Shown piece after piece: positions 17,773-23,581 of a stretch of 64,000 nucleotides of DNA. The notes beneath the pieces were generated by a model. The model was not told the DNA's origin and searched no databases. It saw only the letters and a program-made list of their open reading frames with translations. The stretch covers positions 124,001-188,000 of the forward strand of contig JBBDNB010000039.1 of NCBI GenBank assembly GCA_040877935.1, read 5' to 3'. Numbering within the stretch: position 1 is the stretch's first letter; each line of letters opens with the position of its first letter. This DNA is from Chitinophagales bacterium. GTDB taxonomy: Bacteria; Bacteroidota; Bacteroidia; Chitinophagales; CAIOSU01. A program made the position numbers and the translations under genes.

Positions 17773-18140
17773 GGGGCTGACCGGAATTGACGGCAGGACT
17801 TGGAGATATACTTGCGTGTCGAGTATTCTGTCATATACTCGTAAATCCTAAGGCAGTATTTTTTTAGTTGGCGAACAAGATTACGCCATGGCTGCGTAGT
17901 ACAAGGTACTAAACAGCTTTTGTCCCTTTCCAGCTTTGTCTGGTAGGTAGGATATGGGGCATCGACAATATCAGACTAGTGAGGCAGAAGTAATTCGCCT
18001 GTCTTGCGAAATTTAGAATTTAAGGAGTGCATCAGGTGGGTCAACTGACCTTTGCATTCCCGACAATCAACAGGTGACTACACATGTAGATGGTATGTTT
18101 GCGACCTGGCCGGACCAGAGTTCGAATCTCTGCAGCTCCA
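17773..18140 (+). ncRNA. ssrA: Transfer-messenger RNA (tmRNA)
   Basis: The 5' end GGGGCTGACC pairs with the 3' CAGCTCC to make the acceptor stem, with one G-U pair. The T arm CAGAG-TTCGAAT-CTCTG is complete. The tag frame at 17870-17899 is GGC GAA CAA GAT TAC GCC ATG GCT GCG TAG, giving the tag GEQDYAMAA. This fits the Bacteroidota tag pattern (GENNYALAA-like, ending in two alanines). About 368 nt, one-piece form, CCA not encoded. It rescues stalled ribosomes with SmpB, which is not in this window. Confidence 0.95.
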
Positions 18141-18148
18141 CTTATAAC

Positions 18149-18575: not shown

Positions 18576-19211
18576 TTAACCTCCAATCAATATCTTCTCT
18601 CCGTAAAACTTTGGTTCTTTGCCCAAAAGCAGGTCCGAAACCATCTTTACACGGGCCAGTTTTTCCCTTATCAAAGTTTTAAAACCATATTTTATATTTA
18701 CTGATTTGGCATTGTATCCAATAGCCTTGAGTTCTTTTTTATTGGCTATAAACACCGCCCTTTCATTGTGGAATTTTTGAGAGATAATGGTTATTTGGTT
18801 CTGCCCGAAAATTTCCCGACTTCTTACTACAGAATCCAGTGTTCTGAAACCAGCATAATCAAGAATAATTCTTTCTTTTGGTATGCCCCTAGCAATTAAA
18901 TCCCTTTTGATGGTAGTTGGCTCATCATATTCTTTGGTAGCATTATCTCCACTTACAAGAATAAAATCAATTTTTCCAGATAGAAAAAGTTCAACAGCAG
19001 CATCAATTCTGTACTGGTAAAATAAATTAACCTTCCCGCCAGATGCGTATTTTGAAGTGCCAAGTAATAATCCTACTTCATTTTTGGGTATCTGCTCTAC
19101 TGAACTGAACAATTGTTGCTTTACACTTAGCTCAACATATTTGTTGATCCCAAATACAGTGGCTAAAATTATAACAAGCAGCAAGCTTAAGTATTTCCAA
19201 AATTTCATCAA
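18576..19211 (-). CDS. SanA/YdcF-type DUF218 membrane protein
   Basis: 211 residues with one N-terminal membrane segment (about 5-23). The DUF218 core has VGLLLGTSKY, an FYQYRIDAAVELFLSG helix, LVSGDNATKEYDEP, GIPKERIILDYAGFRTLDSV and a SQKFHNERAVFIA segment. The GTSK-to-SGDN pattern is typical of SanA/ElyC/YdcF proteins, which act in cell envelope maintenance. The biochemical role is not known. It is a stand-alone gene, divergent from the SDR operon. Confidence 0.8.
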   Translation of the reverse strand: MMKFWKYLSLLLVIILATVFGINKYVELSVKQQLFSSVEQIPKNEVGLLLGTSKYASGGKVNLFYQYRIDAAVELFLSGKIDFILVSGDNATKEYDEPTTIKRDLIARGIPKERIILDYAGFRTLDSVVRSREIFGQNQITIISQKFHNERAVFIANKKELKAIGYNAKSVNIKYGFKTLIREKLARVKMVSDLLLGKEPKFYGEKILIGG

Positions 19212-19331: not shown

Positions 19332-20108
19332 ATGGCTTTTAAATCAAAATACGGTCCATGGGCTTTTGTGGCCGGAGCATCGGAAGGTTTGGGAGCTGCT
19401 TTTGCTGAAGCATTGGCAATAAGAGGACTTAATTTAATTCTTGTTGCCAGGAGAAAAGATAAGTTGGAATCACTGGCTCAAAAAATCTCTGAAAAGTATG
19501 CTGTAAAAGTACAAACAGAGTCGCTTGACCTTTCACAGTATGAATCTGTCTTGACTTTTATAAACAGCCTTGACCAGGAAGTGGGATTGTTGGTTTACAA
19601 TGCAGCCTATGCACCAATTGGATATTTTTCTGAAATGGATTCGGAACACCTTTTAAAAGTAGTAGACGTAAATGTCAAGGCTCCTTTATTGTTGGCAAAG
19701 TTATTCTCCAAAGGAATGCTTCACCGTAAAAAAGGGGGGATAGTTTTAATGTCCTCATTATCCGGAACACAGGGGAGTCCTAAAATAGCTGCCTATGCTG
19801 CTTCAAAGGCATTTAATACGATTTTGGCAGAAGGGCTTTGGAATGAGCTCAAAAAATCAGGTGTGGATGTAATTGCTTCCAATGCTGGTGCTATAAGAAC
19901 TCCCGGCTATCAACAGGCGCAAGATAAAGAAGCCCCAGGCACCCTGGATGCAGCAAAAGTAGCAGAAGAAACCCTGAGTGCATTGGGCAAGGATCCGGGA
20001 GTAACACCTGGCTTCACCAATAAAATAGCACGCTTTTTAATGGGTAGGCTATTGCCGAGAAAAATGGCTGTCTCAATTATGGAGAAAAACACAAAAAAAT
20101 TATCATGA
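19332..20108 (+). CDS. Short-chain dehydrogenase/reductase
   Basis: 258 residues. The cofactor motif GASEGLG is at about residues 15-21, a conserved NAA occurs at YNAAYA, and the catalytic triad is Ser in SSLSG plus YAASK. The pattern matches SDR enzymes that reduce keto groups. It overlaps the ERG24-type reductase gene by 4 bp and is followed by an aldehyde dehydrogenase gene, so a three-step lipid- or sterol-linked pathway is possible. The substrate cannot be read from the sequence. Confidence 0.88.
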   Translation: MAFKSKYGPWAFVAGASEGLGAAFAEALAIRGLNLILVARRKDKLESLAQKISEKYAVKVQTESLDLSQYESVLTFINSLDQEVGLLVYNAAYAPIGYFSEMDSEHLLKVVDVNVKAPLLLAKLFSKGMLHRKKGGIVLMSSLSGTQGSPKIAAYAASKAFNTILAEGLWNELKKSGVDVIASNAGAIRTPGYQQAQDKEAPGTLDAAKVAEETLSALGKDPGVTPGFTNKIARFLMGRLLPRKMAVSIMEKNTKKLS

Positions 20109-21187
20109 GTACAGAAATACTAGGTTTTTTCACCCCCTGGGTTATTTATGCTCTAATTACAGCATTGCATTATTTTTTGCCTGGAAAATGGATCGTTGGA
20201 TACGTGAATGACAAGAAAAGCGGTGAAAAATTAAAATACCGGCTCAATGGCAGGTTGGTATTATTTGCGATGGTTGGCATCTGGTTTTTGCTCGGATATA
20301 TGGAGTGGTTGGCATTTGATTGGCTTTATACCATCCGTTGGTATAGCCTGGCAGGTGCATGCACATTTGGATTGATCTATTCCTTGCTTTCGGTTTTCCC
20401 TTATCCTTCTACAGGTAAATCAATTGCAGCTGATTTTTTTCTTGGGCGAATTGATAATCCACAATATTTCAATGCAAAAATTGATGCTAAAATGTGGCTT
20501 TACCTGATTGGGGCAGTGATGCTGGAATTAAATGTTTTAAGTTTCACGGCTCATCATTGGCTTGTGTATGGAGCTGATGCTTCTCCCGGAGTTTTACTAT
20601 GCGCTGCTATGCTGAGCTACTTTGTACTGGATTATTTGTCTTTTGAGAAAGTACATTTATACACCTATGATATTTTTGCAGAAAAAGTAGGATTCAAACT
20701 GGGCTGGGGATGCCTTACTTTTTACCCCTATTTTTATGCCATTGCATTGTGGTCAACTGTGCATTTGCCCAATCCGGGGACACCTGTTTACTTGCTGATC
20801 ATTTATGGGCTAATTTTTTTGACTGGATGGACTATAGCACGTGGTGCCAATATGCAGAAGTTTTATTTTAAAACACATCCTTATAAATCTTTCCTGGGAT
20901 TCAAACCTGAATTTATCACAGACGGCAACAAAACATTACTGGTAAATGGGTTTTGGGGGGCGAGCAGGCATATTAATTATCTTGGAGAAATTTTAATGGG
21001 TACAGGTATTGCCCTAAGTGTCGGATTCCCAACTATGCTCTGGCCCTGGTTGTATCCCCTGTATTATGTTGTACTCTTGCTACCTAGGCAAATTGATGAC
21101 GACAAGCGTTGTGCTGCAAAGTATGGTGCTTTGTGGGAGCGGTATATAAGCAGAGTTAAATACAGGATTGTGCCTTATGTGTATTGA
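20105..21187 (+). CDS. ERG4/ERG24-type sterol reductase family membrane protein
   Basis: 360 residues with about nine hydrophobic segments. The C-terminal part carries two signatures of sterol C14/C24 reductases: GFWGASRHINYLGEIL (canonical WG..RH-NY.GD) and a final block with LLPRQIDDDKRCAAKYG followed by W-RY---VKYRIVPYVY. The usual substrate is a sterol double bond with NADPH as donor. Bacterial homologues are known, for example in Coxiella. It overlaps the SDR gene, so the two are translationally coupled. No squalene or sterol synthesis gene is in the window, so the substrate may be an imported or different polycyclic or isoprenoid lipid. Confidence 0.8.
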   Translation: MSTEILGFFTPWVIYALITALHYFLPGKWIVGYVNDKKSGEKLKYRLNGRLVLFAMVGIWFLLGYMEWLAFDWLYTIRWYSLAGACTFGLIYSLLSVFPYPSTGKSIAADFFLGRIDNPQYFNAKIDAKMWLYLIGAVMLELNVLSFTAHHWLVYGADASPGVLLCAAMLSYFVLDYLSFEKVHLYTYDIFAEKVGFKLGWGCLTFYPYFYAIALWSTVHLPNPGTPVYLLIIYGLIFLTGWTIARGANMQKFYFKTHPYKSFLGFKPEFITDGNKTLLVNGFWGASRHINYLGEILMGTGIALSVGFPTMLWPWLYPLYYVVLLLPRQIDDDKRCAAKYGALWERYISRVKYRIVPYVY

Positions 21188-21252
21188 TTTTAAAAAATCA
21201 ACTGGTAATAATAGGCATATTTTTACTAATTTATAGGCAAAAGCATGTAATT

Positions 21253-22602
21253 ATGAAAAGTATCAATCCCTGGAATGGGGAAGTAATATTTGAACACAGG
21301 GCAGATTCTGACTCAATCGTCAATAATAAAATAATAAAAGCTGAGGTCGCCTTCAGTAAATGGAGAAAGCTATCCTTTGAAAAGAGAGCTGAAAAACTGG
21401 AAGCTCTTGCACAAAAATTAGAAGCGCAAAAGGCTGAATTGGCAATTTTGATGACTCGTGAAATGGGTAAACCAATTAAACAGGCAGAAGCAGAAATTGA
21501 AAAATGTGCCTGGGTTTGTCGCTATTATGCAAAAAATGCTGCTGCTTTTTTGTCCGATGAAATAATTCAAACAGATGCACAGAAAAGTTTTGTGCGGCAC
21601 AATCCACTTGGGGTACTTTTGGGAATAATGCCATGGAATTTCCCTTTCTGGCAGTTTTTTCGTTTTGCAGCTCCTTCTGTCATGGCAGGCAATACAGTTT
21701 TACTCAAACATGCATCTTCTGTAATGCAGTGTGCCAAAGCCATAGAAAAGCTTTTTCTCGAAGCGGACTTTCCAGAAGGTGTAGCCCAATCATTAATTAT
21801 TCCCTCTTCTGCTGTGCAATCAGTAATAGAAAATCCTGTGGTGAAGGCAGTGAGTTTGACAGGTAGTGAATTTGCTGGCGCTAAAGTAGCAAGTCAGGCG
21901 GGAGCTAAAATCAAAAAGACTTTGCTCGAGCTGGGGGGCAGCAATGCATTTATAGTGTTTGAAGACGCAGATATTGAAATGGCTGCAGAGAAGGCTGTCT
22001 GGGCGCGTTATCAGAATACCGGGCAGAGTTGTATAGCCGGAAAACGGTTTTTGGTTCAGGAGCAGGTCTATGAAGCTTTTAAAACATCATTTATCGAAAA
22101 ATTAGAAAAGCTAAAGTTTGGAAATCCTGAAGAGACCGATACAAAAATTGGCCCTATGGCTTCCGTAAAACTCGCTGAAGAGTTGGAGAAACAATTGCAG
22201 GAGTCCGTTAAGAAAGGAGCACAATTGACATTAGGGGGAAATCGAAATGGGGCAAAATTTGAACCTACTATATTAGAGAAAATTAAACCCGGTATGCCTG
22301 CATTTGATGAGGAGCTTTTTGGCCCTGTAGCGGCTTTTAGTAAATTTTCTACTGAAGAAGAGGCCGTGAAATTGAGTAATGAAAGCAATTTTGGACTTGG
22401 GGTAAGCATATGCACAAATGATAAGTCGCGTATAAAACGCCTCATTGATCAAATGGATGAAGGTGCTGTATTTTTCAATGAGCTTGTAAAGTCAGATCCG
22501 CGCTTACCTTTTGGAGGGATAAAAAATTCCGGATATGGAAGAGAGCTTTCTAAAGCAGGCATTGTAGAGTTTGTGAATCAAAAGACTGTTTATATTGCTT
22601 AA
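21253..22602 (+). CDS. Aldehyde dehydrogenase family protein (succinate-semialdehyde dehydrogenase-like)
   Basis: 449 residues from the ATG at 21253 (MKSINPWNGEV); a longer in-frame start at 21184 adds a hydrophobic leader that I reject. The catalytic Glu lies in LELGGSNAF and the Cys in NTGQSCIAGKR, and a MPWNFPFWQ block binds the cofactor. It oxidises an aldehyde to an acid with NAD(P). The short length and ALDH order match the succinate-semialdehyde dehydrogenase group, but the neighbours hint at a lipid aldehyde. It follows the sterol reductase gene by 65 bp. Confidence 0.88.
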   Translation: MKSINPWNGEVIFEHRADSDSIVNNKIIKAEVAFSKWRKLSFEKRAEKLEALAQKLEAQKAELAILMTREMGKPIKQAEAEIEKCAWVCRYYAKNAAAFLSDEIIQTDAQKSFVRHNPLGVLLGIMPWNFPFWQFFRFAAPSVMAGNTVLLKHASSVMQCAKAIEKLFLEADFPEGVAQSLIIPSSAVQSVIENPVVKAVSLTGSEFAGAKVASQAGAKIKKTLLELGGSNAFIVFEDADIEMAAEKAVWARYQNTGQSCIAGKRFLVQEQVYEAFKTSFIEKLEKLKFGNPEETDTKIGPMASVKLAEELEKQLQESVKKGAQLTLGGNRNGAKFEPTILEKIKPGMPAFDEELFGPVAAFSKFSTEEEAVKLSNESNFGLGVSICTNDKSRIKRLIDQMDEGAVFFNELVKSDPRLPFGGIKNSGYGRELSKAGIVEFVNQKTVYIA

Positions 22603-22696: not shown

Positions 22697-23581
22697 ATGG
22701 CTGATAAAATAGATTACTACAAGGATATTAATAAACTGAATCCGGAGTCTGGGCGCTTAATTTTTAGACGTACAGTTACTTCAACTTGTTTTTTTATTCT
22801 CACTTTTTATACAGCCGTATTTTTAAACCATGCTGTTTCTGCTTATGCTGCAAAAATAATGGGTTATGATCCTGTACTTAAATATTTTGAAGTGAGCAAT
22901 CTCCCTATGGATTGGGAGCATTGGTCTAAGTTGAGAGTCTTTGTTTTTTACAGTAGCGGGCCATTATTTGTTTTGTTTGTCGGGCTGATATCATGGCATT
23001 TGCATAGTTTATTAAAAAAAACCAGCAGCATCTTTAAGCCTGTTACTTTGTGGTTTTCTTTTAATTGTATTGTGCTTTTTTTGAGCTATGTGATTGTTGT
23101 CGTTTTAGGTACGGGCTCATACAATTCCCCATTTTATTATGGTTTTTCAGTAATTGCTTCCTGGTATTGGTTTGGAAAACCTCTAATGGCACCGGTTACA
23201 TTATTGGGGGTTGGCTTTAGTGCACTTTATGCTTTCTTTGTTTCAAGAAGTTTTTTGGAACTGTCAAGTTCATATAAACGGATAAATAACCTTTACGGAA
23301 AACGTGCTTTTGTGTTTTACAATGTGGTTTTGCCAGTATTTATAGGTTCGGTTATTATATTGGTATTAAGAGCGGATAAAGATTTTATTGAAAGCCTGGT
23401 GACTTTTATCAGTGCTGTAATTGTAGTTTTTGTGATTTGGCTGCGAAGTATTCCTAAAATATCCGGATTGAAAATTGTAAAGAGCGATACATTGGATTTT
23501 CCTGTAGGATTTTCTCTAATTCTCTTATTGGTTTTTCTTGCTTTGCTTAGCTGGTTTTTTGAGAATGGGCTTGTTCTTTAA
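22697..23581 (+). CDS. Multi-pass membrane protein of unknown function
   Basis: 294 residues with about seven to eight hydrophobic segments and no soluble domain. A segment LNHAVSAYAAKIMGYDP near residues 42-60 has the shape of the M50 site-2 protease helix (HExxH...AxxxG), but the HExxH residues are missing, so I do not call a protease. It lies 94 bp after the aldehyde dehydrogenase and may be the last gene of that transcript. I do not recognise the family. Confidence 0.65.
   Translation: MADKIDYYKDINKLNPESGRLIFRRTVTSTCFFILTFYTAVFLNHAVSAYAAKIMGYDPVLKYFEVSNLPMDWEHWSKLRVFVFYSSGPLFVLFVGLISWHLHSLLKKTSSIFKPVTLWFSFNCIVLFLSYVIVVVLGTGSYNSPFYYGFSVIASWYWFGKPLMAPVTLLGVGFSALYAFFVSRSFLELSSSYKRINNLYGKRAFVFYNVVLPVFIGSVIILVLRADKDFIESLVTFISAVIVVFVIWLRSIPKISGLKIVKSDTLDFPVGFSLILLLVFLALLSWFFENGLVL

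Follow-up and report, generated by a model that had tools for sequence, protein, structure and literature searches.

A conserved bacterial gene pair of a short-chain dehydrogenase and an ERG4/ERG24-family membrane reductase lacking the delta-14 tyrosine, a candidate lipid-saturation module

The stretch of DNA considered here, referred to as the window, comprises 64,000 nucleotides from a Chitinophagales bacterium (assembly GCA_040877935.1, contig JBBDNB010000039.1, positions 124,001 to 188,000), the genome of which amounts to 4.03 Mb and is 98.75% complete. Its element of interest is a pair of genes on the forward strand, in which a short-chain dehydrogenase/reductase (SDR) is followed by a membrane reductase of the ERG4/ERG24 family. 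A first-pass annotation had placed an SDR, an ERG24-type reductase, an aldehyde dehydrogenase and a multi-pass membrane protein here in that order, which is confirmed at their positions, and had read the first three as one operon that could modify an imported sterol, a hopanoid-like lipid or another isoprenoid; as a whole, its observation is partly confirmed and its interpretation partly supported. The features of the pair, in window positions, are as follows.

19332..20108, forward strand: SDR of 258 residues, the upstream partner of the pair, called as an open reading frame (ORF) with Pfam and NCBIfam profile matches.
20105..20108, forward strand: SDR stop and reductase start, joined in a 4-base ATGA overlap that suggests translational coupling of the two genes.
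20105..21187, forward strand: ERG4/ERG24-family membrane reductase of 360 residues, assigned by PF01222, a match to the delta-14 sterol reductase MaSR1, an AlphaFold2 model, a residue tally and a tree.
20621..20623, forward strand: codon of reductase residue Phe173, aligned with MaSR1 Tyr241 (yeast Erg24 Tyr257).

Membership of the reductase in the sterol-reductase family, first proposed from the signatures RHINYLGE, DDDKRCAAKYG and VKYRIVPYVY, all of which are present in the protein, is borne out by both profile searches and predicted structure. PF01222 matches it over model positions 75-432 of 432 with an E value of 4.1e-48 and 164.7 bits (cut-off 27); DUF1295 is the only other Pfam match at E <= 0.001, a threshold at which neither the SRD5A C-terminal family nor isoprenylcysteine methyltransferase (ICMT) appears. 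The solved structures related to it by sequence are delta-14 sterol reductases only, headed by MaSR1 (4QUV; phmmer E 3.6e-36), and the host genome holds a single PF01222 match, which is this reductase. The AlphaFold2 model, built from 56 aligned sequences with a mean pLDDT of 90, is predicted to share the MaSR1 fold along its entire length (Foldseek E 2.0e-16, TMq 0.80; Z 31.9, root-mean-square deviation 3.6 over 346 residues), and the next-best folds are PbSRD5A (Z 10.6), SRD5A2 (Z 9.8) and ICMT (Z 8.3); at Z >= 8 the structure comparison holds no reductase family besides MaSR1 and SRD5A. An ICMT-like identity, which had been named as the finding that would speak against a sterol reductase, is rejected on both counts, since the Pfam match is absent and the fold scores Z 8.3 against 31.9 for MaSR1.

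Relatives of the window reductase were sought in 84,980 named species genomes, among which 209 loci were confirmed; the best 80 were kept, all of them 57-72% identical to the window reductase, so that counts over these loci lean to near relatives. The carriers among the 80 include Bacteroidota of the Flavobacteriaceae (Bizionia, Lutimonas), Bacteroidales, Prolixibacteraceae, Paludibacter, Chitinophagales and Saprospiraceae, as well as marine Gammaproteobacteria (HTCC2080, Luminiphilus), termite-gut Treponema, further Spirochaetota, and single records titled Deltaproteobacteria, Alphaproteobacteria and Verrucomicrobia. Together with the window they provide 81 clade rows, which were set beside 11 ordinary reductase rows (7 Bacteroidota, 3 Spirochaetota and MaSR1); L183 and L186 were left out of both the tally and the tree.

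The cofactor site of the clade is kept. K252, K256, W284, R288, H289, N291 and Y292 are found in 81/81 clade rows, and R328, D332 and Y340 in 80/81, with one gap each. The window residues K252, K256, N291, R328, D332 and Y340 correspond to the NADPH-site positions K319, R323, N359, R395, D399 and Y407 of MaSR1 (R323 being replaced by Lys), of which we take K319, R323, D399 and Y407 to be NADPH-site residues. N291 and R328 moreover align with N547 and R583 of LBR, where disease mutants lose NADPH affinity (PMC4951196).

The proposed proton donor, in contrast to the cofactor site, is gone, so that the loss of catalytic residues, raised at the outset as a further counter-sign, applies to the delta-14 Tyr and not to the NADPH-site residues. 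Yeast Erg24 Tyr257, equivalent to MaSR1 Tyr241, has been proposed to donate the proton in delta-14 reduction (PMC12489058); at this position Phe (F173) stands in 81/81 clade rows, and Tyr in 11/11 ordinary rows and in both of the second paralogues described below. Judged from its sequences, the reductase clade has therefore uniformly lost the Tyr proposed to protonate an isolated delta-14 double bond. The second proposed catalytic residue, MaSR1 Asp363, has undergone a conservative change to Glu (Glu295 in 81/81 clade rows, Glu in 8/11 ordinary rows), while the position of MaSR1 Asp271, which by numbering offset is Asp287 of the yeast sterol channel, is occupied by Cys203 in 79/81 clade rows. 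Four further residues, H184, Y188, K198 and Y207, stand in every row of the window clade, and none of the 11 ordinary rows has them at the corresponding positions. Position 141 varies among the 81 clade rows (E 56, Q 17, A 5, G 2, gap 1); E141 as an SRD5A-like replacement acid is not claimed, given Glu in 56/81 rows.

A tree of 44 rows, including 31 of the 81 clade rows, no eukaryotic sequence and some flagged long branches, places the window clade on one side of a branch with support of 96/99, recovered in 94% of bootstrap trees, and the ordinary reductases in a separate clade (100/100). The phylogeny that had been suggested, with bacterial and eukaryotic reductases, was thus realized for bacterial rows and sets the window clade apart from ordinary ERG24. 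The second ERG4/ERG24 paralogues of two sterol-operon genomes, G246 and G270, fall between the window clade and the ordinary rows and are 38-40% identical to the window protein. These paralogues (L069:3030-4181 and L070:6979-8115) keep the Tyr and have Gly in place of the NADPH-contacting Asn.

The SDR is of the classical type (adh_short E 7.3e-38 in Pfam), with the cofactor motifs GASEGLG and ARR and the catalytic tetrad N114-S142-Y155-K159, the residues of which are invariant in a 13-row alignment. A homologue lies within 3 kb of the reductase in 69/80 loci, 33 times upstream on the same strand and 36 times downstream in convergent orientation, so that the proposed coupling of the SDR to the reductase proves real and conserved; the SDR matches number 72 in 519 kb near the reductase versus 2 in the remaining 723 kb of the loci. 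Of the 32 upstream-arranged loci that could be measured, 23 show the same 4-base overlap. Identity to the window SDR is 49-67% for the upstream and 40-48% for the downstream arrangement, and the occurrence of one partner in two arrangements favours a functional link over inherited gene order. No other gene family recurs close to the reductase in more than a handful of the loci. The SDR and the reductase, as gene neighbourhoods indicate, are kept together across phyla.

The profile matches of the SDR bear on its substrate in two directions. Against the 7beta-hydroxysteroid dehydrogenase equivalog the window SDR reaches 111.7 bits and the partner SDR of L103 reaches 134.7 bits (cut-off 300), a weak similarity of both SDR types that points, indirectly, to a sterol-like substrate. 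The best NCBIfam match is mycolate reductase, at 155 bits far under its cut-off of 380, which could instead be taken to favour long-chain acyl substrates, with the SDR as 3-ketoacyl reductase and the membrane protein as trans-2-enoyl reductase. Very-long-chain fatty-acid elongation has just such an arrangement of an SDR with a membrane ene-reductase. However, neither an elongase nor a dehydratase recurs in the neighbourhood, and the reductase fold is closer to MaSR1 than to SRD5A-type enzymes; an acyl role is accordingly regarded as improbable.

The two genes that follow the pair are judged to lie outside the module.

21253..22602, forward strand: aldehyde dehydrogenase, succinate-semialdehyde-dehydrogenase-like.
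22697..23581, forward strand: multi-pass protein of 294 residues, with no match to Pfam or NCBIfam profiles.

The aldehyde dehydrogenase probably starts at the ATG at 21253, some 65 bases beyond the reductase stop codon, because homology sets in only at residues 15-24 of the ORF as listed. This short gap and the common direction of the genes speak for the three-gene operon that had been suggested, in which the aldehyde dehydrogenase would complete the pathway. In relatives, however, the aldehyde dehydrogenase is not beside the pair, as among the 80 loci a single weak match falls within 4 kb of the reductase. Moreover, all 6 other genomes of the host family carry an orthologue of 48-52% identity, none of these 6 has a window-type reductase, and in the 5 inspected the orthologue has other surroundings. 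The aldehyde dehydrogenase is therefore rejected as a module member, as is the 294-residue protein, for which the 80 loci hold no homologue. Support extends to the SDR and the reductase alone; the three-gene operon is already largely refuted and retains very little likelihood. An empty site was not found in the 5 family genomes inspected, because the aldehyde dehydrogenase sits there in unrelated surroundings. On the other side of the pair, a transfer-messenger RNA gene with the tag GEQDYAMAA (17773-18141) lies shortly upstream, and a DUF218 protein (18576-19211, reverse strand), SanA-like at 199 bits (cut-off 363), is divergent from the SDR.

The first-pass annotation had seen no squalene or oxidosqualene genes, which holds for this contig; such genes are nevertheless present elsewhere in the genome, and the suggestion of a host without sterol precursors is wrong at that level. 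Contig C28 encodes a squalene synthase (TIGR01559, 383.5 bits, cut-off 286.75), a squalene epoxidase (PF08491, E 2.3e-66), a prenyl-diphosphate synthase, an HMG-CoA reductase and, under its cut-off, a type-2 isopentenyl-diphosphate isomerase-like protein. Contig C56 encodes a 763-residue cyclase that matches human lanosterol synthase at E 1.9e-213 versus 3.2e-42 for squalene-hopene cyclase and carries DCTSE, of the DCTxE type that presumably marks oxidosqualene cyclases. With squalene synthase, epoxidase and oxidosqualene cyclase in its genome, the host may therefore make sterols, a rare trait in view of strong cyclase matches in 5/395 Bacteroidota genomes, the host included. A sterol at the level of lanosterol or cycloartenol would be the expected product; lanosterol has been measured in another member of the Bacteroidetes, Fluviicola taffensis (PMC4919349).

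Later steps of the pathway were not found in the host genome. Its only cytochrome P450 match shares 24-25% identity with the CYP51 proteins of sterol operons and has carotenoid hydroxylases and a putative P450 as its nearest PDB entries, the best match to a DHCR24-type reductase is 23% over 118 residues, and the best match to an SdmA-like Rieske oxygenase is 25% over 109 residues. As neither CYP51 nor an SdmA-like protein was found, no delta-14 bond is expected for an Erg24 to reduce, and an ordinary C-14 (delta-14) reductase is rejected, since both the catalytic Tyr and a CYP51 to partner it are missing. The squalene synthase, epoxidase and cyclase genes allow the reductase to be considered as a step of the host's own sterol pathway (squalene to oxidosqualene to a lanosterol- or cycloartenol-type sterol), in which it would reduce a double bond in the side chain or a ring of what the cyclase makes, and the lack of a DHCR24-type enzyme leaves room for such a step. 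The pair, however, is distant from the host sterol genes, the catalytic Tyr is lost, and most carriers show no cyclase match (see below), so that a role in the host's own pathway is considered rather unlikely.

Other sterol loci were observed in the Bacteroidota. Four sterol operons (L065:7032-15204, L064:4802-12962, L066:6132-15317 and L067:1-6172, the last cut by the contig end) share the order 3beta-hydroxysteroid dehydrogenase (3beta-HSD)-like gene, Rieske oxygenase, ERG24, CYP51 (the L065 copy PDB-checked) and a squalene-epoxidase/oxidosqualene-cyclase fusion of about 1140-1176 residues (Pfam-checked in L065 and L064); L066 also holds a sterol-methyltransferase-like gene. In G395, a genome of the host family, the cluster L061:2286-13851 comprises oxidosqualene cyclase, squalene synthase, squalene epoxidase and HMG-CoA-reductase-like genes along with a 557-residue FAD protein, matched in Pfam by FAD_binding_4 only, which we presume to resemble DHCR24; an ordinary ERG24 of this genome lies outside the cluster (L062).

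Cyclases were surveyed in 50 of the 80 carrier genomes, selected largely by the length of their contigs and many of them drafts of unclear completeness. A cyclase-family match was obtained in 8/50, 7 of these at E < 1e-50, and no squalene or oxidosqualene cyclase match in the other 42/50; sterol synthesis seemingly is not required, and an imported sterol, as originally suggested, may be the substrate in view of these negative genomes. Strong cyclase matches are nonetheless over-represented, at 6/33 Bacteroidota-titled carriers versus 4/394 background Bacteroidota (host genome excluded; Fisher p 2.3e-5), a bias that speaks for a sterol-like substrate. After near relatives are collapsed, 3/30 carriers stand against 2/170 genera (p 0.025), a crude collapse with taxonomy as a confounder. 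As a separate observation, a 10.2 Mb genome titled Deltaproteobacteria (G416, locus L097; Myxococcota in the tree output) carries both the pair and a 696-residue cyclase with the motif DCTAEG.

Taken together, the SDR and the reductase are tentatively proposed, with somewhat less than even confidence, as a two-gene lipid-saturation module. In the proposed relay, the SDR would oxidize a lipid alcohol to the ketone or aldehyde, the membrane reductase would saturate the conjugated carbon-carbon double bond of the resulting enone or enal with hydride from NADPH, and the SDR would then reduce the carbonyl back to the alcohol. An SDR that oxidizes cholesterol is known in SpiR (PMC13079761). Because the double bond of an enone or enal is conjugated, the membrane enzyme would need no strong acid to raise a carbocation; the lost protonating Tyr fits an activated, enone-type substrate of this kind without proving one. 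By a weaker inference, the likeliest substrate would be a sterol-like molecule, which most carriers would take up from outside and the host may make for itself.

Several points weigh against this proposal. A sterol-like substrate is favoured by family, fold and cyclase enrichment, which are indirect and leave it no more than plausible, and the enrichment itself comes from a small number of independent lineages. For MaSR1 Y241, the catalytic role is deduced from structure, docking and models, and no clade-invariant replacement acid was pinned down, as E141, a possible mimic of the SRD5A Glu, is not kept throughout the clade. At the same time, 11/80 loci are without an adjacent SDR, some of them through a contig end; L073, L110, L112 and L121 were examined over 10 kb on both sides. 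L110, L112 and L121 make up half of the 6 Bacteroidota carriers whose cyclase match is strong, so that a strict two-gene reading is weaker for them; another enzyme may be able to replace the SDR, or its gene may lie elsewhere. Aerobic isolates that carry the reductase include Lutimonas saemankumensis, L. halocynthiae and Bizionia arctica, in the last of which no SDR lies next to it.

The same chemistry could be applied to an acyclic lipid, in that the pair would act on a polyprenol or a different acyclic isoprenoid and saturate its alpha-isoprene unit, in a bacterial version of dolichol formation. Mammalian dolichol is made by an SDR and a membrane reductase of a family that shares the core fold (PMC11607601). 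Cyclase-free carriers are compatible with such a role, and SRD5A enzymes are the closest folds after MaSR1. However, undecaprenol is near-universal and the module is rare and patchy, with the 209 loci in the whole genome scan and the window type in 1/395 Bacteroidota of the PF01222 sample; no other gene family recurs close beside the pair; and the reductase is nearest to sterol reductases, not to SRD5A, in sequence and fold. A dolichol-like function is thus deemed unlikely, if less so than the acyl and own-pathway roles.

A narrower form of the saturation module, in which the pair would hydrogenate stenols to stanols independently of oxygen, is speculative and placed on a level with the dolichol-like function. 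Here, the SDR would convert a delta-5 3beta-stenol to the delta-4 3-ketone, the altered Erg24-like enzyme would reduce the delta-4 bond in the 5alpha sense, and the SDR would then make the stanol. The record titles of the carriers point to lakes, fens, sediments, sludge, stratified seawater and termite guts. Stanols are known to arise from stenols in anoxic waters and sediments, and the pair, if it acts in this way, would supply an enzyme system for bacterial 5alpha-stanol formation in the carrier habitats and would show one Erg24-family branch recast as an enone reductase without the protonating Tyr. A link to the conversion of cholesterol to cholestanol by Treponema/Brachyspira hyodysenteriae was considered and set aside, with no literature found for it. 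In 392 genomes of the phylum of a Treponema carrier, the window-type reductase was matched twice, in the carrier and in one other genome, which is not a clean test of that link; the second match lies in surroundings of 42.6% G+C, which does not suggest Brachyspira, the genomes of which are low in G+C.

The fold family and pairs of an SDR with an ene-reductase are already known, while searches of one open-licence library brought up no description of the window clade, its SDR partner and its changed active site. Bacterial ERG24-type genes are taken as signs of sterol synthesis or of acquisition from eukaryotic hosts; the present clade is large, extends over Bacteroidota, Spirochaetota, Gammaproteobacteria and others, and combines a kept fold and cofactor site with a lost Tyr in genomes that mostly show no sterol cyclase match. 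If confirmed, an annotation as delta-14 sterol reductase would be wrong for the window-type clade, and the pair would stand as two candidate genes for the hydrogenation of lipids in bacteria, possibly of stenol to stanol.

Among known systems, MaSR1 of Methylotuvimicrobium shares with the window reductase the PF01222 family, the whole-chain fold and the NADPH-site residues, and differs in its 29% identity, in the changes of Tyr241 to Phe173 and Asp271 to Cys203 (the latter in 79/81 clade rows), and in that the C-14 demethylase expected beside an enzyme of its type was not found in the window host. The ERG24 proteins of the Bacteroidota sterol operons (G301, G392, G270 and G246) are similar in Pfam family, length and C-terminal signature; however, they are encoded among the CYP51, Rieske oxygenase, 3beta-HSD-like and epoxidase-cyclase fusion genes of those operons, keep the Tyr, and form the separate clade. 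The SRD5A steroid 5alpha-reductases (PbSRD5A, 7C83; SRD5A2, 7BW1) share the core fold and resemble the proposed role in their NADPH-dependent, enone-reducing logic, with a catalytic QEY motif and hydride addition at the beta carbon of the enone (PMC7815742), whereas their identity to the window reductase is 10-15% and their Pfam match is absent from it. In gut bacteria, a 3beta-HSD/isomerase stands beside or is fused to a 5beta-reductase and the two hydrogenate pregnenolone (PMC12238238); this system likewise joins a Rossmann-fold dehydrogenase to a reductase of carbon-carbon double bonds and acts on 3beta-hydroxy-5-ene steroids, although its 5beta-reductase, compared by description only, is not described in the available text as a membrane ERG4/ERG24 protein. 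A functional analogy is offered by DHRSX and SRD5A3, which form dolichol via the same three-step relay (PMC11607601): their reductase belongs to another family and the system is eukaryotic, but there, as proposed for the window pair, an SDR and a membrane ene-reductase act sequentially on one lipid.

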